Below, in pieces: positions 961 through 33,528 of a stretch of 33,528 bases of DNA. The DNA comes from a virus, in IMG/VR virus record IMGVR_UViG_3300035661_000211, positions 1 through 33,528 of that record; one strand, 5' to 3'. A program made the position numbers and the translations under genes. The notes beneath the pieces were generated by a model. It was not told where the DNA came from and searched no databases. It saw only the letters and a program-made list of their open reading frames with translations. How positions within the stretch are numbered: the stretch's first letter is position 1; the number at the start of each line of letters is the position of its first letter.

Positions 961-2463
961 GTGGACATTCTTCAAGACATCCATTCTGAGATCAGAGCTG
1001 GGCTCGAAAACGAGCGTGATCGGCTCCGCGATGCGCACGACAATCGTCGCTTCGCCGATGGATGCTTCGAAGAGTACCCCACACGGCCCGAGAACAGCCC
1101 TCATCAGCGACTCGACTATCGTCGCACATCCATGATCATGCAGAGAATCATTGATGTGTTGACGGCTCATCTCTACAAGGCCAGTCCCACGAGGCAGGTT
1201 GATGGCAATCCCTTGGCCACTGAGTGGTTGGAACGGGTTTATCGACGTAATGCCATGTTGCCTATGTGGCAAGAGGCCGATCGACTCAGTCACGTGGGTG
1301 ACTTCTGTGCCTTTCAGTTCGCAGGGGACGAAGATCCCCAAGCCCCAGTCAAAGTCCACCTTTGGGGAGCCGATCAGCTCTGTGTATGGCTGGACCCTGA
1401 TGACCAAAAGCGTCCGCTCGCGGTGGCGACGCTCGATCGAGTTGATGCTCGCCGAAGACTCACGCTCTGGAGTGCCGAAGAGAAGTCGATCTTCATGACC
1501 AAGAAGGTGAGCCCTAACCAGACGGCTGGAGGCACTTCCTACGAGCTGGTCGATCAGATCGAGAATCCCTACCGCAAGCCCGACGGCGAAGGCGTGATCC
1601 CATTTTCATTTGTGCACTACAAGTTTCCAGCCACTGACTTCTATACGCGTGGCCCTGGCAATCATCTCAGAGGTGTGAACGAATATTGCAACTTTGATCT
1701 CGACGACATAGGGGATGGCAAGCGGTATCTGAGCAAGCCGATCGGAGTGGCTGAAGGGGTCGACGAGGGCTGGAGTCCGCCGTCGGCTGTGAGGCCGGGC
1801 ATGTTCATCAATCTCGACACGAACACGCTCGATTCGATGGGCAATGCGGTCAAGCCGTCGCTCACCTATCTCACGGCCGATTCGAGCTGGCTTGGAGCGA
1901 ACTGGAGCGACCTCAACTCGTACATCGACCACTCGCTTGAGATGGCTGGAGTCCCACCCGGCACGATTCGACTGAGCGCGTCAGCCAGCTCTGGCATCCA
2001 GATCGTCGCTGAGCAGCTCCCCTTGCTCGCTCTGGCCGAGAAACGTCGCACGCCGTTCGCGTTCTACGAGTCCGAAGCCGCTCGGATCGCGATTTTGGTC
2101 GGTGCCTCACACAGACGGAACAACGCGGCCACGGACCTCACGCTTGAAGCTGCCTCCCATGATTTCAGCCTCTCACTCGGATGGCCGAATCTGTTCGTCC
2201 CATTGCCGGGCCCAGAGAGAAACAACGACTTCGATTGGCTTCTTGAGCATGGTCTCACGGACAAGGTCGAGATCCTCATGACTCGCGAGGGCATCACTGA
2301 GGATCAAGCCTACGAGCGTCTGCAGAAGGTTGCCGAACGTAACAAGAAGCTTGAGGCGATGGGCATCGAGCCGAATTCTTCTGGGATCCAGAAGGCCCAG
2401 CTCGCGGCTCAGTCTCAAGCCAAGGCCCTGGACCATCAGCCGACGGCCAACGTCAACGCGTAA
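961..2463 (+). CDS. Portal protein
   Basis: A 500-residue protein with a GTG start directly after the upstream stop codon. The portal forms the twelve-subunit ring at one capsid vertex through which DNA enters, and it docks the terminase and later the tail. The call rests on length, position between terminase and scaffold/capsid, and the general portal character: a helical N-terminus, a region near residues 100-160 rich in Trp and Asp (VHLWGADQLCVWLDPDDQ), a long central mixed domain, and a helical C-terminus. The last 60 residues (from about 440) are charged and helical, as in the barrel or tail end of portals of the SPP1 gp6 type. No frameshift is seen. Confidence 0.85.
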   Translation: MDILQDIHSEIRAGLENERDRLRDAHDNRRFADGCFEEYPTRPENSPHQRLDYRRTSMIMQRIIDVLTAHLYKASPTRQVDGNPLATEWLERVYRRNAMLPMWQEADRLSHVGDFCAFQFAGDEDPQAPVKVHLWGADQLCVWLDPDDQKRPLAVATLDRVDARRRLTLWSAEEKSIFMTKKVSPNQTAGGTSYELVDQIENPYRKPDGEGVIPFSFVHYKFPATDFYTRGPGNHLRGVNEYCNFDLDDIGDGKRYLSKPIGVAEGVDEGWSPPSAVRPGMFINLDTNTLDSMGNAVKPSLTYLTADSSWLGANWSDLNSYIDHSLEMAGVPPGTIRLSASASSGIQIVAEQLPLLALAEKRRTPFAFYESEAARIAILVGASHRRNNAATDLTLEAASHDFSLSLGWPNLFVPLPGPERNNDFDWLLEHGLTDKVEILMTREGITEDQAYERLQKVAERNKKLEAMGIEPNSSGIQKAQLAAQSQAKALDHQPTANVNA

Positions 2464-2498
2464 CCCAATCACTCCCCTATCCTTTGTGAGTCGATCCG

Positions 2499-3107
2499 AT
2501 GGCAGATGAATCAACCTCCTCCAGCTCGGGCAAGAGCAGCAAGTGGGCTCTCCGCGTTGGTGAAAAGATGAGCAAACTCACGCGTGCCAAGCGTGATCTC
2601 GCCAAGCAGCTCGCTGACACCAAGGCTGAGCTTGAGAAGGCTCCCAAGGTCGAAGACTTCACCAAGCTCCAGCGTGAGGTGACCGCCTCGAAGCATCGCA
2701 AAGTCGTTGAGAAGGCTGCCACCGAGCTGGGCCTCGATCCCGATCGGCTCGACGATCTTTTGAAGCTCTCCGACTATCAGGCTGAAGGCGAGCCCAACCC
2801 GACGCTGATCAAGGCCTTTCTGGGCAAAGCATCAGAGGGCCGAGACTGGGCCAAGGCTCAGACGAAGTCCGTGGCCGGTGACGAGTCTGGCGACGATGGC
2901 GATGGGGATGGTGATGGTGGCTCGACGCCTCCTCCATCGGTCTCCAAACTGCCCAAGGGCGAAGGCCACGGCAAGGGCAAGACTGACAAGCTTGTCGGTG
3001 GCTTGAAAGTCACCCAGTCCCAGCTCAAGAGCCCCGACTGGATTCGAGCCAACAAGGCCGAGATGCACAAGCACTCCGCGGCTGGCACACTGACCATTCT
3101 CGACTGA
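2499..3107 (+). CDS. Putative capsid scaffolding protein
   Basis: A 202-residue highly charged protein between the portal and major capsid genes, the usual place of the scaffold. Residues 20-75 are Lys/Glu-rich and predicted to form a coiled coil (KLTRAKRDLAKQLADTKAEL). Residues 125-160 are a low-complexity Asp/Gly then Pro/Lys linker containing DDGDGDGDGG. The C-terminus is short, helical and basic, like the coat-binding end of many scaffolds. Scaffold proteins diverge quickly, so the call depends on context and composition. It could also be a different internal head protein. Confidence 0.7.
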   Translation: MADESTSSSSGKSSKWALRVGEKMSKLTRAKRDLAKQLADTKAELEKAPKVEDFTKLQREVTASKHRKVVEKAATELGLDPDRLDDLLKLSDYQAEGEPNPTLIKAFLGKASEGRDWAKAQTKSVAGDESGDDGDGDGDGGSTPPPSVSKLPKGEGHGKGKTDKLVGGLKVTQSQLKSPDWIRANKAEMHKHSAAGTLTILD

Positions 3108-3134
3108 TCTGATCGACCCGCCTCGCTCCCCTCT

Positions 3135-3170
3135 GCCTTGCTCCCACCTCTCGGCCCGTTCGCGGCCACG
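3135..3170 (+). promoter_or_regulatory. Conserved leader element upstream of the capsid gene
   Basis: The intergenic leader of the major capsid gene contains GCCTTGCTCCCACC followed by CTCTCGGCCCGTTCGCGGCC (3148-3167). The same two blocks occur before the tail-tube gene (10848-10887) and in reduced form at 28100-28139. The GGCC...GGCC part can form a small hairpin. It may be a late promoter, a regulator site or an mRNA-stabilising leader; the sequence does not say which. Confidence 0.5.
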
Positions 3171-3217
3171 TTCCTTCCCACACTCACATCTCGATTTCCT
3201 CATGAGGGCTCACGCCG

Positions 3218-4153
3218 ATGGCTAACCCCACCTCAGGTCAATTCCAGACCCTTGTCGCGGCCGCGAATATCGCGAGCCAGAATCTGAAGTTTTCGAATCA
3301 AATGCTCAGATCGGTCTATCTGGATTACAAGCCGATCGCTCAGACGCCAGGCGCTACGGTAACGCTCAACGTCAACATCCCGACCGTGAGTGAGGGCGAC
3401 ACCCAAGACATCGGTGGCGGACCGCTCCAGCCCACGGACTACGCCTACACGTCGACCTCGATTCCGTTCAACCACAACGACTCGACTTCGTTCGTGGTCA
3501 AGAACTGGGATGAGATCCGGACTCCAGCCGATCTCTCGAAGATGTTCATCAAGCCACGGCTTGAGTCGCTCTTGCGGAAGATCAACCGTCGGCTCGCGAA
3601 CCTCGTCACGGCCACGAGCTTCAACAGCTACGCGGCCATCACTGGAGCTGGCACTGCCAAGTTCTCGCGTGCCGATCTCGGTGCCGCTTGGGCCTTGCTG
3701 GCGAACAGCGGAGTCAACATCGAAGATCCTGACAACCTCTTCTTGGTCGTCACCCCGACCGCGTACAGCAACATGATGGTCGACACGACCTTCTACTACG
3801 AGAACATCGTAGGCGTCGAGGCGAGCGTTCAGGCCACCCAGAAAGCGATGATCGCTCCGCAGTTCAACGCGAGCATTCGTTGGGATCAACAGATCCCACA
3901 AGCGACTGGCCCAGTCGAGGCTGGCTTGTTCTTCCACCGCAACGCGATCGCGATGGTGACCACGCCTGCGATCCAGGCCAACGATCCGTCAGTGAAGGAG
4001 ACCTTGCTTTTCCCAGTCGAAGGCGTCGATCTCCCAGTGCTGCTCCAGATGCAGTACAGCATCAAGGATCAAGGCACGCTCGTGAACATGATCTGCTGTC
4101 ACGGTGAGACGGTCGTGCGTCCCGAGCACGGCGTCTTCATGAAGGCTTCCTAA
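3218..4153 (+). CDS. Major capsid protein
   Basis: A 311-residue protein at the position of the coat gene, directly after the scaffold candidate. Features fitting the HK97 fold as seen in P22-like coats are: an extended N-terminal stretch with NVNIPTVSEGD, a long helix region near residues 105-130 (MFIKPRLESLLRKINRRLAN), a P-domain segment with LVVTPTAYSNMM, and a C-terminal beta region ending near VVRPEHGVFM. It has a long leader (110 nt) with a repeated element, which is rare in this compact genome and fits strong, separately controlled expression. A hairpin follows the stop codon. Confidence 0.88.
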   Translation: MANPTSGQFQTLVAAANIASQNLKFSNQMLRSVYLDYKPIAQTPGATVTLNVNIPTVSEGDTQDIGGGPLQPTDYAYTSTSIPFNHNDSTSFVVKNWDEIRTPADLSKMFIKPRLESLLRKINRRLANLVTATSFNSYAAITGAGTAKFSRADLGAAWALLANSGVNIEDPDNLFLVVTPTAYSNMMVDTTFYYENIVGVEASVQATQKAMIAPQFNASIRWDQQIPQATGPVEAGLFFHRNAIAMVTTPAIQANDPSVKETLLFPVEGVDLPVLLQMQYSIKDQGTLVNMICCHGETVVRPEHGVFMKAS

Positions 4154-23068: not shown

Positions 23069-23110
23069 TTCGCAATGCGAAGGTTGCCGGTTCGATCCCG
23101 GTCCGCTCCA
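23069..23110 (+). other. attP: Phage attachment site (attP) core: 3-prime part of tRNA-Ala(CGC)
   Basis: The bases form the 3-prime part of a tRNA: loop TTCGCAA with CGC anticodon, stem strand TGCGA, variable loop AGGTT, T arm GCCGG-TTCGATC-CCGGT, acceptor strand CCGCTCC, and discriminator A. U70 in the acceptor strand and A73 are alanine identity marks. Bases to the left (GTCGAACA) do not pair properly, so only the 3-prime half is carried. This is the classical form of a phage core that rebuilds the host tRNA on integration. The exact limits of identity need the host sequence. Confidence 0.85.
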
Positions 23111-23217
23111 TTGGAAGTCTGTGGCTCGACTTAGGGCCAGATTTCCTAGCTGTGTGCCGAAGATGGCTCAAGGCTTCAACTCCTTGGGTTGATCACTAGG
23201 TGCACGATCGTCCGTTG

Positions 23218-27939: not shown

Positions 27940-27985
27940 CGAGGCCGTGAACAGCTCGCACTGTTCACGGCCTCGCTTCGTTTAT
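27940..27985 (+). terminator. Strong terminator closing the regulator module
   Basis: CGAGGCCGTGAACAG pairs perfectly with CTGTTCACGGCCTCG (15 bp) across loop CTCGCA and is followed by CTTCGTTTAT. It separates the lysogeny-type genes from the membrane cluster and late genes. Confidence 0.8.
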
Positions 27986-28460: not shown

Positions 28461-28583
28461 ATGCTTCGCCGCTGCTCGCGAGCCATCGTGTCAGTGATCA
28501 CAGACCCGATCTTGCACATGATTTTTATCGCGGTCGGAGTCTCGGCGATCGGGGCTTACTTCGCGACTCTGGAACCACAGTAG
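28461..28583 (+). CDS. 40-residue membrane microprotein
   Basis: ATG 28461 has GAGG upstream; the stop is TAG 28581-28583. The basic N-terminus (MLRRCSRA) is followed by a membrane helix around residues 17-36 (ILHMIFIAVGVSAIGAYFAT). Its stop overlaps the start of the next membrane gene (TAGTG), so the two are probably translated together. Orientation by the basic N-terminus would be N-in. Confidence 0.6.
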   Translation: MLRRCSRAIVSVITDPILHMIFIAVGVSAIGAYFATLEPQ

Positions 28584-28915
28584 TGGTCGCTCTGGCACTC
28601 AAGGCCCTTGTCTCGGGAGTGATCATGAGCCTTGTGCATCGACTGCTCGTGCCACCACCGATGCCTCAATTGGATCTCCCGATTGCTGCTCGATACCTTC
28701 CGACCGTCAAGCAAACCATCAATCAAGCGATCACTGGATTCTACTTCGTTGGAGCCGCGGATGGGCTTGGAATTGGAATCACTCTTGGCGTCGTGCTGAC
28801 TCTGTTTTTGCTCGCACTCTTGTGGATCTTTCGGTCGTTTCTCAGCTCGATCTCGACCACGTTTCGATTGCTGGCCACTCGATTCACTATCCCACCACGA
28901 GGACTACTCAAGTGA
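28583..28915 (+). CDS. Two-segment membrane protein
   Basis: A 110-residue protein with GTG 28583 overlapping the previous TAG. One hydrophobic segment at residues 1-20 (VVALALKALVSGVIMSLVHR) and a long one at residues 61-85 (GIGITLGVVLTLFLLALLWI) are separated by a Pro-rich loop (LLVPPPMPQLDLP). The C-terminus is basic (TTFRLLATRFTIPPRGLLK). It may be a holin or a partner of the protease encoded next, whose start lies in the last codons. No family is recognised. Confidence 0.6.
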   Translation: MVALALKALVSGVIMSLVHRLLVPPPMPQLDLPIAARYLPTVKQTINQAITGFYFVGAADGLGIGITLGVVLTLFLLALLWIFRSFLSSISTTFRLLATRFTIPPRGLLK

Positions 28916-30228
28916 GCACGGATATCAACCCATCATCGCCACAGCCCAAGAAGATCGGCCCGATCGCGAGTGGTCTGCTCTCGGCGATTTTGTATCTCTC
29001 GCTGTTGTGCGTGGTCATTAAGCTCGTGGGCTGTTCGGTCGACTCGGTGCGACAGATCGGCCACGGCAAGATCACTGAGGCCCAGCTCCAACGATGTCCG
29101 ATCGATGGCCCTTGCCTTCCGTCGTCGAGCAGCTCGCCAGCCAGCACTCCAGACGCCAAGCCGATGAAGCGGCCGAGCGGTGATGTCATGCCGTGGGAGT
29201 CGGCTGTGCGGATCCGGATCAAGGCCGACAAGTCTGAGACTTCAGGTAGTGGGACGATTGTCGTGGGCTCTCCAGAGCGGTCGATTGTGCTGACGTGTGC
29301 CCATCTCTTTCGAGGCAAGAGCCAGGCCACCCCGAAGACGTTCGCGTTGCCGATCTTTGTCGATCTGTTCAATGGCAAGTTCAAAGCTGAGTATCTCGAA
29401 ACTGTGATCGGATCGTGCATCGACTTCGACCTGGCTCGTGATGTGGCTCTGATTGAGATCAGGCCGAATCGACCGTTAAAGGCATCGATCGTGGCGATTG
29501 GTTGGAGACCAGTCTTGGGCGAGATGTACTTCGCGGTCGGTTGCACGCGCGGCAACTATCCCACGACTTGGGCTGTGGCGAATGTGGGCTCGTTTGGAGG
29601 CCTCGTCGGAAAGTATCGAGCTATCTCGACCACGTATCCACCGATCGAAGGCCGATCGGGTGGAGGCCTCTATCTCGCCGACGATGGCCGCTTGGTCGGT
29701 GTCTGCACTGGCCACGCTGATGGCATCGGTCTCTATGCCGAGACGGCTTCAATCAAGCGAATCTTCGAGACCAACGGACTCACTGAGCTGACGACCTCTC
29801 CGCCTTCAGGAGACCGGATTCCACGAGCCAACATCGAGCCACCGACGGCGATCGATTCGACGGTGCCGATCGGCTCGGGCAAGGTGCAAGGGCTTACGCT
29901 CCCATCTCAGCTCGATCTCGGTCACATCGTGCTCGGTGGCGGTGCTTTGGTCGGTATCTGGCAATGGCTCAAACATGCAGCTCTCGCTCGGCTCACGAGT
30001 GGTCAGTGCGTGCAGGCGTCGCCACTCGTGACGGAGCTGGATACCAGAGTCGCGAAGGCCAGTCCGCACGATCCAATCATGGATCTCGTCGCCGAGCTGC
30101 GGAAGCAACGGCTCGCGAAAGAGGATGAGGCGAAGGCCAAAGCGGCTGCTCAAGAGGTGATCGAACTGGCTGGGAAGATCAAGGCCGTCGTGGACCCTAC
30201 CTCAACGGCCAACGCCGACGGCAAATAA
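28912..30228 (+). CDS. Membrane-anchored trypsin-like serine protease
   Basis: A 438-residue protein with GTG start in the GTGA overlap. Residues 20-40 (LLSAILYLSLLCVVIKLVGC) form a membrane anchor, followed by a Ser/Pro linker. The protease domain spans about 95-290. Catalytic residues seen: His131 in LTCAHLF, Asp177 in LARDVALIEI and Ser249 in EGRSGGGLYL, all in proper order for family S1. Residues about 340-358 (LGHIVLGGGALVGIWQWL) may form a second membrane segment, and the end is a charged helix. I recall related proteases from Isosphaeraceae planctomycetes. Its role in a phage is unknown: lysis, exclusion and virion processing are all possible. Confidence 0.8.
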   Translation: MSTDINPSSPQPKKIGPIASGLLSAILYLSLLCVVIKLVGCSVDSVRQIGHGKITEAQLQRCPIDGPCLPSSSSSPASTPDAKPMKRPSGDVMPWESAVRIRIKADKSETSGSGTIVVGSPERSIVLTCAHLFRGKSQATPKTFALPIFVDLFNGKFKAEYLETVIGSCIDFDLARDVALIEIRPNRPLKASIVAIGWRPVLGEMYFAVGCTRGNYPTTWAVANVGSFGGLVGKYRAISTTYPPIEGRSGGGLYLADDGRLVGVCTGHADGIGLYAETASIKRIFETNGLTELTTSPPSGDRIPRANIEPPTAIDSTVPIGSGKVQGLTLPSQLDLGHIVLGGGALVGIWQWLKHAALARLTSGQCVQASPLVTELDTRVAKASPHDPIMDLVAELRKQRLAKEDEAKAKAAAQEVIELAGKIKAVVDPTSTANADGK

Positions 30229-30280
30229 GCGGACCTCGTTGGATCTATTGCAAGCAACCTCCTCCACGTGAGTGCCCTCT

Positions 30281-30655
30281 ATGCCACGTTTCGTACGAGG
30301 CCCAGTGATCGGGCCGATTGAAAAGAAGGCTCCTCAAGCCGAGCCGACGAGTCACGCGCTCGACCAGGTCGCCGACTTCCTTGGCATGAAGCCGAATGAC
30401 ACGGCCGTGTTCGAAGTCCGACCGCTCGGTGCCGATCAGAATCCGCTTGCGGCGATCCACGTGATTGCCTCGACCAACGCCTCGGACCCGAGCCTCACCG
30501 ACGACGAGCAAGACGCCAAGTGGCTCAGCGAGTCGTCGCCGCGTGGTGAGTATCGAGTGCCACCCGATGGCACGCATTCCAACGTCGAGATCCACGTTCC
30601 CGAAGTGCCTTTCGGGCTGTCGTACTGGGTTACGTTCTTTGAGTACGCGAGCTGA
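30281..30655 (+). CDS. Hypothetical acidic protein
   Basis: A 124-residue protein from ATG 30281 (GTG 30272 is also possible). It is acidic in the middle (TNASDPSLTDDEQDAKWLSE), with strands FEVRPLGADQNPLAAIHVIA before and PFGLSYWVTFFEYAS after. The small beta core may be a virion or packaging accessory. The next gene starts within its stop codon. Confidence 0.5.
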   Translation: MPRFVRGPVIGPIEKKAPQAEPTSHALDQVADFLGMKPNDTAVFEVRPLGADQNPLAAIHVIASTNASDPSLTDDEQDAKWLSESSPRGEYRVPPDGTHSNVEIHVPEVPFGLSYWVTFFEYAS

Positions 30656-31890
30656 TGTCCACCCACGCCCCTGGATCACTGAGGCTCGAATGGGTTGATC
30701 CCAGTTCGTTGGGTCCAAACCCAGCGAACTGGCGCATCCATCCCGAGCCACAGCGAGCGGCTCTGTCTCAGTCGCTCGACCAGGTCGGTTGGGTTAAGCC
30801 TCTGATCTTCAACGCGACCACTGGCCATCTGCTGGATGGCCACATGCGCCGTGAAGATGCGATCAAGCGAAAGTGTCTTGTGCCAGTCGTGATCGGCGAG
30901 TGGGATCTGGCTCACGAGCGAACGATTCTCGCCACGCTCGACCCGATCGCCATGATGGCCGAAGCCGACTCGACGGCGTTCTCTAAGCTGCTCGAAACCT
31001 TGGAGACGACGGGCCCCGATTTGATGGGCCTCATCTCTCAGACGGCTGATGCGTGCGGTCTGTTTGCGGATCTGCAATCGGGCAAAGACGACGACGATGA
31101 TCGCTCGTTGGCTACGGTCGACCCGACGGCTCCGACTGAGGCGACTGACGAGGATCGAGACACGGTCCCCGATGCGATCTACCCGAGCAACAACGATCTC
31201 GGGATCCCGACGCTCGATTTGAAGCTCCAAGCTCGTGCGGTCGACTTCCCAGTCCAGACTTGGGGCTCGATCAGTGCGAATGTGCCGATGACTGGGACGT
31301 GGTGCTTCTACGTCGACGATCATCGCTTCGAGCCGATCTGGAAGAACCCGCTCAAGGTGCTCCGCTCGGCCCCGACTAACGCGATCGAGCCAAACTTCAG
31401 CACACACGAACAACATCCACTCGCCTTCGCGATCTGGCAGACCTATCGCAAGCGCTGGTGTGCTCGATTCTGGCAGACGCGAGGCGTGCGGATCTTCGTC
31501 GACCTCAACGTGGACGCGACGTTTCGAGCGATCAACTTCCTCGGCGTTCCCAAGGGCTGGACAGCCTTCGCGAATCGTGCTCACGACCAAGGCGATGGGC
31601 TGATCGAGGCTCACGCCGCGGCTTGCGAGCACTCTGGCACCGATCAAATCCTCTACCTCGTCTACGGCGGTGGCAAGGCCGTCAAGCAGCTCGCCCAAGA
31701 GCAGTCTTGGATCTGGGTTCCCGAGCAGTACGACACAGCTCACGCTCGGATCGCGGCACAAAAGGAGGCTCAGCATGGGTCGGGGCAAAGCAGCGGTCAA
31801 GAAGGGCATCAGAGGCCGAGCGATCAAAGTTCGGGGGCCAAGCTCGGCAAACCCAAGCTCAAGCGATCGCCCCGTAAAAAAGCTCCTTAA
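30655..31890 (+). CDS. ParB/sulfiredoxin-like domain fused to DUF4417
   Basis: A 411-residue protein whose ATG overlaps the previous stop (TGATG). Residues 12-95 form a ParB-like nuclease domain (LGPNPANWRIHPEPQRAALS, then GHLLDGHMRREDAIKR with the GHxRxxA-type motif). Residues about 200-365 match DUF4417 as I remember it: WCFYVDDHRFEPIWKNPLKV, then FVDLNVDATFRAINFLGVPK and GWTAFANRA. The last 45 residues are Gln/Ser/Lys-rich. Phages often carry such domains next to the terminase, where they may mark or bind DNA for packaging; this role is inference. Confidence 0.72.
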   Translation: MSTHAPGSLRLEWVDPSSLGPNPANWRIHPEPQRAALSQSLDQVGWVKPLIFNATTGHLLDGHMRREDAIKRKCLVPVVIGEWDLAHERTILATLDPIAMMAEADSTAFSKLLETLETTGPDLMGLISQTADACGLFADLQSGKDDDDDRSLATVDPTAPTEATDEDRDTVPDAIYPSNNDLGIPTLDLKLQARAVDFPVQTWGSISANVPMTGTWCFYVDDHRFEPIWKNPLKVLRSAPTNAIEPNFSTHEQHPLAFAIWQTYRKRWCARFWQTRGVRIFVDLNVDATFRAINFLGVPKGWTAFANRAHDQGDGLIEAHAAACEHSGTDQILYLVYGGGKAVKQLAQEQSWIWVPEQYDTAHARIAAQKEAQHGSGQSSGQEGHQRPSDQSSGAKLGKPKLKRSPRKKAP

Positions 31891-32047: not shown

Positions 32048-32614
32048 GTGGCCAAACCTCTCTCCAAAACCCAACGAACCGACCTTGAGGCGAGCGCATG
32101 GGCTCTCTCTCAGCAAGGTTGGAGTCAGCCTCGAATCGCTCGCCACCACGACGTCGATCAAGGCACGGTTTCGAGGGCCTTGGCCAAGGTCAGAAAGCGG
32201 GCATCAGAGAAACTCGACGAGGACGCCAAGCTCTGGCTCGTGACGCTTCTTGAGCAGCTCGAACACGTCGCCGACGAGGCGTTGCAAGCTTGGGAGCGAT
32301 CCAAGAAGCCCAAGAAGAAGGCCTCGCGCAAGTCTGGGCTCTCAGTGGTTGGCACCGACGGCGAAACGACGGCGGGCCAAGATCAGACCATGACAGAGAT
32401 CGTCGAACGTGAAGGCGAGCCAGGCTTCCTCAATGCCTACTTCGGAGCCATTGATCGCATTCGGACGATGCTCAATCTGGACGCTAGGACCATTCCGCGA
32501 GAGTCCGTAACTTACGACGGAGACACACCTTCCGTTCGTGATGCACTCGCCGAAGCTGAAGCCGCTGATGCAGCCTATCGACCCGACCCACCTTCTGAGG
32601 CACATGCACCTTGA
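32048..32614 (+). CDS. terS: Terminase small subunit (probable)
   Basis: A 188-residue protein with a GTG start, directly upstream of the large terminase. Residues 18-46 form a helix-turn-helix (WALSQQGWSQPRIARHHDVD, then QGTVSRALAKV), the DNA-recognition part of small terminases. Helices around residues 65-90 (WLVTLLEQLEHVADEALQAW) could serve as the oligomerisation domain, followed by a Lys-rich linker and a helical C-terminus (FLNAYFGAIDRIRTML). Length is typical. Position and HTH support the call. Confidence 0.75.
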   Translation: MAKPLSKTQRTDLEASAWALSQQGWSQPRIARHHDVDQGTVSRALAKVRKRASEKLDEDAKLWLVTLLEQLEHVADEALQAWERSKKPKKKASRKSGLSVVGTDGETTAGQDQTMTEIVEREGEPGFLNAYFGAIDRIRTMLNLDARTIPRESVTYDGDTPSVRDALAEAEAADAAYRPDPPSEAHAP

Positions 32615-32712
32615 GACGCTCCTTAGCTATCACATTCACCGTGCTCGTCTATCTGGCCGTCTTCACATTCGCGACGGCCTTGGCCCTCCACGCCACGAGC
32701 GAGGCAAGCCCG
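32611..32712 (+). other. In-frame hydrophobic extension upstream of terL
   Basis: From TTG 32611, which overlaps the terS stop (TTGA), a 34-codon stretch runs in frame into terL. It encodes RRSLAITFTVLVYLAVFTFA followed by TALALHATSEASP, a clean membrane helix with mostly G or C at third codon positions. It may be an alternative N-terminus, an ancestral microprotein that lost its stop, or non-coding. ATG 32713 has its own GAGG site. Confidence 0.4.
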
Positions 32713-33528
32713 ATGAAGTCACGCTCTGAGCGGCTCCGTGAACTGGTCAGCTCGTGCAAGGACGATTACACACGCTTCGGTTGGTCGATCCTTGGGCGCG
32801 ATGGGAGCAAGGCCTACTGGTCAAGGCAACGTGAGATCTGTCGATCGGTGGTCGAGTGCCACACGACGGTCGTGCCAGCCGGCAACGCTGTGGGCAAGAG
32901 CTATGTCGCTTCGGGGATCGGTCTTGGCTTTCTGTACACTCGGCCCGGATCGCTCGTGTTCACGAGTGCACCGACGCAAGCCCAGCTCCAAGGGGTGCTC
33001 TGGAAGGAGATGAGTCGAGCGCATAGCTCAGCTCGCGTTCCTCTCGGTGGCAAGATCAGTGGATCGGGCCCGATTAAGCTCGAACTTGGCGACGGCTGGA
33101 TGGCCTATGGGCACGTCTCGGGCAAAGTGGAGGCGATGTCAGGCCACCACGCTCGTGATCTGCTCGCGATCGTCGACGAGGCGTCTGGCGTCCCCCAAGC
33201 CGTCTACGATGCGGTCGATTCGCTCAATCCCAGCCGTCGGCTACTGATCGGCAACCCACTCCGCGGGGAAGGCACGTTCTACGAGCTGTGTCGTCAGGCT
33301 GACGAAGGAGCGGACCCCAAACTGCTGCGCAAGATAGTGATCCCATCGACCGAAAGCCCTCACGCTCATCTCGAACGATCGCCGTGTGGCATGGCCGATC
33401 GGACGTGGCTTGAGGCCATGCGATCCCAGTACGGCGAGAACTCGCTGTGGTGGTTGTCTCACGTGCTGGCTCTCTTCCCCGGAGAGAGTGACGACACGCT
33501 CGTGCTCAAGGCTTGGATCGACTTGGCC
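32713..33528 (+). CDS. terL: Terminase large subunit, N-terminal part (ATPase domain)
   Basis: This is the 5-prime part of the gene that continues at base 128 after circular joining (bases 33402-33528 equal 1-127). Walker A is PAGNAVGKS (residues 55-63), and Walker B is LLAIVDEAS (residues 150-158). Later segments include LNPSRRLLIGNPLRGEGTFY, the usual coupling region. The ATPase drives DNA packaging. ATG 32713 has GAGG 8 bases upstream. The frame stays open to the end of the window. Confidence 0.9.
   Translation, partial: MKSRSERLRELVSSCKDDYTRFGWSILGRDGSKAYWSRQREICRSVVECHTTVVPAGNAVGKSYVASGIGLGFLYTRPGSLVFTSAPTQAQLQGVLWKEMSRAHSSARVPLGGKISGSGPIKLELGDGWMAYGHVSGKVEAMSGHHARDLLAIVDEASGVPQAVYDAVDSLNPSRRLLIGNPLRGEGTFYELCRQADEGADPKLLRKIVIPSTESPHAHLERSPCGMADRTWLEAMRSQYGENSLWWLSHVLALFPGESDDTLVLKAWIDLA
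33402..33528. repeat. Terminal direct repeat, right copy
   Basis: Identical to bases 1-127. See the left copy for interpretation. Counts of genes or bases should use only one copy. Confidence 0.95.

Follow-up and report, generated by a model that had tools for sequence, protein, structure and literature searches.

Lambda-type phages carry a lysis cassette with the order Q-S-R-Rz before terS/terL. The locus described here is similar in that a small membrane protein (ORF2) is encoded directly 5′ of a putative envelope-cutting enzyme and before the terminase genes. It differs in that the enzyme is a protease and not a recognised peptidoglycan hydrolase, ORF2 has no match to a holin family, and no spanin was recognised. 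The protease shares its fold with the HtrA/DegS family (S1C), and DegS likewise has an N-terminal membrane anchor, but the protease of this locus has no PDZ domain, has a second membrane helix and a coiled tail, and is encoded with ORF2. Thioredoxin-trypsin proteins of the Isosphaeraceae have a homologous trypsin domain with the same triad, whereas the usual host form carries a thioredoxin ahead of the trypsin and no ORF2 upstream and the phage protein has membrane helices instead. Trypsin-like folds also occur in tailed-phage proteins in BFVD (e.g., A0A6J5RC96, 18% identity), which were compared as proteins. We found no account of phage exit from planctomycetes in the literature (open-licence papers), and the process appears to be undescribed.

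The window, i.e., the whole stretch of 33,528 nucleotides analysed here, is IMG/VR record IMGVR_UViG_3300035661_000211, the complete circular genome of a temperate phage. The ends of the record share a 127 bp direct repeat (1-127 = 33402-33528), and the circle thus formed measures 33,401 bp. The large terminase gene spans the circular junction, and the genome also encodes an integrase, a Rad52-type protein, portal-region, scaffold and capsid proteins, and further late-type genes. Genes were called by a simple script, and start codons are uncertain. The host group is most likely the Isosphaeraceae (Planctomycetota) because relatives of the terminase (10/45 genomes, ≤53% identity) and of the capsid protein (8/45 genomes, ≤42% identity) are found there. 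In an even draw of 392 Planctomycetota genomes, the top terminase match (36% identity, e-value 8e−43) was in an Isosphaeraceae genome (G001). A stretch at about 23069-23115, close to the integrase, has matches in 32 of the 45 Isosphaeraceae genomes, the best at 94%. Two of the three loci examined have a tRNA-Ala(CGC) gene at the matching stretch, with the match covering the 3′ part of the tRNA, and the stretch is likely to be the attP core.

The cassette and its surroundings are arranged as follows:

961-4153: portal, scaffold and capsid genes
27940-27975, + strand: terminator-like stem-loop with a 15 bp perfect stem and a 6 nt loop, upstream of the cassette
28461-28583, + strand: ORF1, 40 aa, single-TM microprotein
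28583-28915, + strand: ORF2, 110 aa, GTG start, holin-like membrane protein
28912-30228, + strand: protease, 438 aa, GTG start, membrane-anchored and trypsin-like
30272-30655, + strand: companion gene, 127 aa, start uncertain (ATG at 30281)
30655-31890, + strand: ParB-like and DUF4417 fusion, between the cassette and the terminase and adjoining the small terminase gene
32048-32614, + strand: terS-like HTH protein
32611-33528 and across the junction to 727, + strand: terminase large subunit, 505 aa

ORF1, ORF2 and the protease are coupled by overlaps of 1 nt (TAGTG, ORF1/ORF2) and 4 nt (GTGA, ORF2/protease), so that the three-gene chain in the first-pass annotation was reproduced in both coordinates and overlaps. 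The strong terminator that it placed upstream is present as a perfect stem-loop, though with a weak T-tail (CTTCGTTTAT, weakly T-rich). Its operator-like palindrome did not hold up, as the sole longer palindrome found (28485-28510) lies within ORF1. The companion gene has no Pfam or PHROG match; genes of similar size, alike by eye, follow the peptidase in L146, L148, L197, L201 and L181. Relatives of the ParB-like/DUF4417 fusion are present in L175 and L176. Two 48 nt stretches of the cassette (28828-28875 and 29893-29940) are 71% alike and, in the frame of the protease, the part of the first that is 5′ of the start codon resembles the beginning of the C-terminal membrane region. This likeness is either a relic of duplication or chance.

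Phages often encode a protease near their packaging genes, and the location before the terminase could thus suggest a protease for maturation of the capsid or virion. The anatomy of the locus led us to reject this role as exceedingly improbable: the enzyme has two predicted membrane helices and is coupled to membrane proteins, and its gene is distant from the portal, scaffold and capsid genes.

The protease matches Pfam Trypsin_2 above the cut-off (residues 112-264, 4.6e−11). His131, Asp177 and Ser249, proposed earlier as the triad, are invariant in nine aligned homologues. In the alignment of viral contigs, Asp177 and Ser249 are invariant and His131 is nearly so, one row being incomplete. The AlphaFold model places a helix at residues 17-47, a beta-barrel domain at 94-295, a second helix at 344-362 and a helical coiled tail at 388-427. 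The N-terminal helix agrees with the membrane anchor that had been proposed, and the second helix is an addition to it. Compared with the PDB, the modelled domain matches DegP, HtrA1 and DegS (e-value about 1e−11, target TM about 0.75). The protein is a trypsin-like serine protease with a predicted HtrA/DegS-like fold between two predicted membrane helices. Neither Pfam nor the model has a PDZ domain after the protease domain, where the membrane helix and coiled tail are found instead, and Pfam found no thioredoxin domain in this protein. An N-terminus on the cytoplasmic side would put the protease domain in the periplasm.

The resemblance to DegS raises the possibility of regulated proteolysis, in which a DegS-like cut of an anti-sigma factor or other membrane protein would reprogram the envelope stress response of the host. 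DegP, HtrA1 and DegS are the nearest solved folds, the N-terminal anchor is like that of DegS, and host members of the trypsin family appear to carry an ECF sigma factor in the same chain (L138, L147). The phage protein, however, has no PDZ domain and is paired with ORF2 and not with a sigma factor, and the exchange of the trypsin for a papain-like enzyme (below) argues against a narrow signalling cut. We consider this explanation very unlikely.

ORF1 (SVITDPILHMIFIAVGVSAIGAYFATLEPQ) has one TM and is the 40-residue membrane microprotein noted in the first-pass annotation. A motif scan found a counterpart (DPILH-TM) in the IMG/VR phage L201, and another (DPMVH-TM) is immediately 5′ of ORF2 in L198; ORF1 thus likely has homologues in these two phages. 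ORF2 founds, as judged by its sequence, an unnamed protein family that is defined in the present analysis. The family is marked by a PPxMP motif and a GxxxG glycine zipper in a TM helix (G57/G61/G65 in the window's ORF2). All 11 ORF2 homologues that were scanned have the GxxxG, as does the ORF of L216. ORF2 itself matches the profile, has the GxxxG in its TM helix and is directly before the peptidase. Of the two membrane segments previously assigned to it, the one at about 52-84 is conserved, while the N-terminal hydrophobic segment is absent from several homologues. Neither ORF1 nor ORF2 matches a holin family in Pfam or PHROGs.

Scans of IMG/VR or genome contigs with single sequences (protease, portal, capsid and terminase queries) returned no relatives, the exact 8-residue patterns being too strict, and the phage and plasmid collections searched with the protease gave no match. 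Relatives were instead retrieved by genome similarity searches and profile queries. In the 45 Isosphaeraceae genomes, the ORF2 profile has four matches, and the gene that follows directly encodes a peptidase each time, a trypsin in three cases and a papain-like enzyme in one. These are in L146, in L148 and L198 (two prophages of one genome, both with signal-peptide trypsins), and in L197, which has the papain-like enzyme. Prophage L146 has an unrelated terminase, and its ORF2 homologue (43% identity over 46 residues, e-value 5e−10) precedes a 540 aa protein in which a thioredoxin and a trypsin are followed by a membrane helix and a tail. Viral contig L201, retrieved with the trypsin profile, is a counterpart in full, with a related terL and a trypsin with membrane helix and tail. 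Its gene order is an ORF1-like peptide, one small gene, ORF2, trypsin, a 126 aa gene, a 68 aa gene, terS-like and terL.

An IMG/VR search with a profile of the papain-like enzyme found 11 contigs, each with an ORF2-like gene immediately upstream (that of L217 by eye); L218-L223 are near-identical contigs. The ORF2 model, run over 9606 ORFs, recovered those of L215 (2e−22), L213 (2e−19), L214 (1e−4), L216 (0.014) and L218-L223 (0.039). Down to an e-value of 0.04 it recovered only ORFs directly before a peptidase, the sole other match being at 0.47, and the pairing is thus more than chance. The weakest of these assignments rest on position and shared motifs besides the score. The junction between ORF2 and the peptidase ranges from a 7 nt gap to an overlap in 12/12 loci listed. 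The sequences therefore indicate that ORF2 and the peptidase make up a genuine phage cassette, which is mobile and is found in about ten lineages of phages, both related and unrelated, counting L218-L223 and L217 as one and including IMG/VR contigs. This bears out the suggestion that the genes form a unit, with ORF2 preceding either a trypsin or a papain-like peptidase. The co-occurrence is not complete, since viral contigs L202 and the more distant L204-L212 have trypsins without a recognised ORF2; this agrees in part with the observation that the first-pass annotation had named as refuting its proposal. An ORF2-anchored IMG/VR search returned only loci already known. The ORF2 profile found nothing in the 392 planctomycete genomes, which is weak evidence of absence as candidates were partly scored and the profile included a doubtful row from L181. 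The 116 aa membrane protein of L181 was itself considered as an ORF2 homologue and rejected, as the ORF2 profile fails to recover it.

The cassette is before terS/terL in the window, L146, L148, L198 and L201, and after tail-type genes in L218. A sigma-70-like gene, comparable to a late regulator, is upstream in L148, L197 and L216. The locations are those of a lysis cassette, either between a late regulator and the terminase or after the tail genes. They also bear on superinfection exclusion or lysogenic conversion, in which a periplasmic protease and its membrane partners would break down or block envelope proteins on which incoming phages depend. Consistent with exclusion, the cassette is self-contained, is behind a stem-loop terminator in a temperate phage, and has an exchangeable peptidase akin to a host family. 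Yet it is on the terminase strand and adjoins late genes in most loci, it follows tail-type genes in L218, and in several loci a sigma-like gene precedes it. Exclusion therefore seems unlikely to us.

The enzyme that takes the place of the trypsin beside ORF2 is unrelated to it and appears to be papain/C39-like. C79, H164 and the run D180/N181/N182 are invariant, and there is no Pfam match. The model is weak (pLDDT 49); its nine PDB matches below an e-value of 0.001 are to CtaG and a C39-like peptidase, and further papain-fold enzymes rank next. One weaker PDB match is a pseudomurein endoisopeptidase, and the enzyme might thus cut wall peptides, not proteins. Papain-like genes also occur without a confirmed ORF2 in L181 and L177, that of L177 being a true papain-family protein (PF00112, 2.4e−7) before the terminase and without a recognised ORF2. 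A conserved secreted gene with a C-terminal TM follows the papain-like peptidase in L181 (7972-9054), with homologues in L197 and L214-L218. It belongs to no Pfam family, and a thioredoxin-like identity suggested by eye was dropped after an unsupportive profile comparison (probability 4.7%).

Relatives of the trypsin domain (≤46% identity) are present in 44 of the 45 Isosphaeraceae genomes. The typical form has a signal peptide, a thioredoxin, a linker, the trypsin and a disordered tail; the thioredoxin domain is present in the phage L146 protein (PF00085, 2e−7) and in host L139. Read from their sequences, host proteins L138 and L147 appear to be single chains that begin with an ECF sigma factor and also contain a membrane segment and the trypsin. 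In the tree, the proteins of the window, L146, L148 and L198 arise near the base of the Isosphaeraceae clade, those of L201 and L202 are inside it with weak support, and the viral trypsins L204-L212 are a separate group. The tree forces at least two label changes, its long branches making the direction and number of transfers uncertain. Within the separate group, L204, L205, L207, L208, L210, L211 and L212 encode secreted trypsins. On several of these contigs the trypsin is accompanied by a papain-fold gene (C92 or C92-like) and by genes of the TM-coiled-coil and ParB-like kinds, the C92 gene being assigned by Pfam in L210 (5.3e−7) and by similarity in L204/L207/L211. It is the arrangement of the window's protease that is unusual, as had been claimed, and not trypsin-like proteins in phages generally.

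Taken together, the position, the small membrane partner with its glycine zipper and the fact that one peptidase can replace another favor a late-gene device for opening the envelope of the planctomycete host, for lysis or egress, to which we give a probability of about one half. The first-pass annotation offered a lysis module, superinfection exclusion or host-factor processing; the lysis module fits best in position, holin-like partner and peptidase swapping, and the other two fit less well. ORF2, with its glycine-zipper helix, would oligomerise and form part of a pore or behave like a holin, setting the timing of the peptidase or licensing it, with ORF1 perhaps an accessory membrane regulator. 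The protease domain would be placed outside the cytoplasmic membrane, and the peptidase would cut peptide bonds of the envelope, either in envelope proteins or, for the papain-like version, in peptide crosslinks. The trypsin is a member of a family that is also encoded on Isosphaeraceae chromosomes, there as secreted thioredoxin-trypsin fusions; one phage keeps the thioredoxin and the window has a membrane anchor instead.

The absence of a visible endolysin had been brought up in this connection. It is true of the 52 ORFs of the window, among which no peptidoglycan hydrolase was recognised and many have no family, and no peptidoglycan hydrolase family is among those listed for the cassette-bearing relatives (25 of 29 families). 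The argument is nevertheless weak because related prophages without the protease show no recognised peptidoglycan hydrolase either.

For a long time planctomycetes were credited with an SDS-resistant proteinaceous wall, Isosphaera among the cited cases (PMC3422733), but a lysozyme-sensitive peptidoglycan sacculus has since been shown in the planctomycetes examined (PMC4432640). Against lysis, a trypsin is not expected to cut a peptidoglycan sacculus, and a membrane-anchored protease can not diffuse like a soluble endolysin. Since descriptions of the wall include both protein and peptidoglycan, the protease could act on structural protein of the envelope, either by itself or with the help of a wall enzyme that escaped recognition. 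An auxiliary role would follow if some other unrecognised enzyme lyses the cell and the cassette loosens a protein coat or the outer membrane in a spanin-like manner. The many window ORFs without assignment leave room for such an enzyme, and in distant trypsin contigs the gene next to the trypsin is C92 or C92-like, with TM-coiled-coil genes nearby, but no further hydrolase could be recognised among the window ORFs, and we regard a purely auxiliary role as quite unlikely. The bolder proposal, that planctomycete phages lyse protein-rich envelopes with a glycine-zipper protein and an exchangeable peptidase, the protease acting instead of a peptidoglycan hydrolase or as its main partner, is tentative and on balance doubtful.

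The ORF2/peptidase pair with its swappable enzymes is a defined, testable candidate for phage exit from planctomycetes. It bears on the importance of structural protein in planctomycete envelopes, and the cassette could supply tools to open planctomycete cells. In L182 (250-1401), a sigma-like gene, a gene for a 91 aa TM-coiled-coil protein, terS and terL occur in this order. The 91 aa protein has no holin family match but resembles BhlA/UviB holins by eye, and this is another candidate lysis slot.
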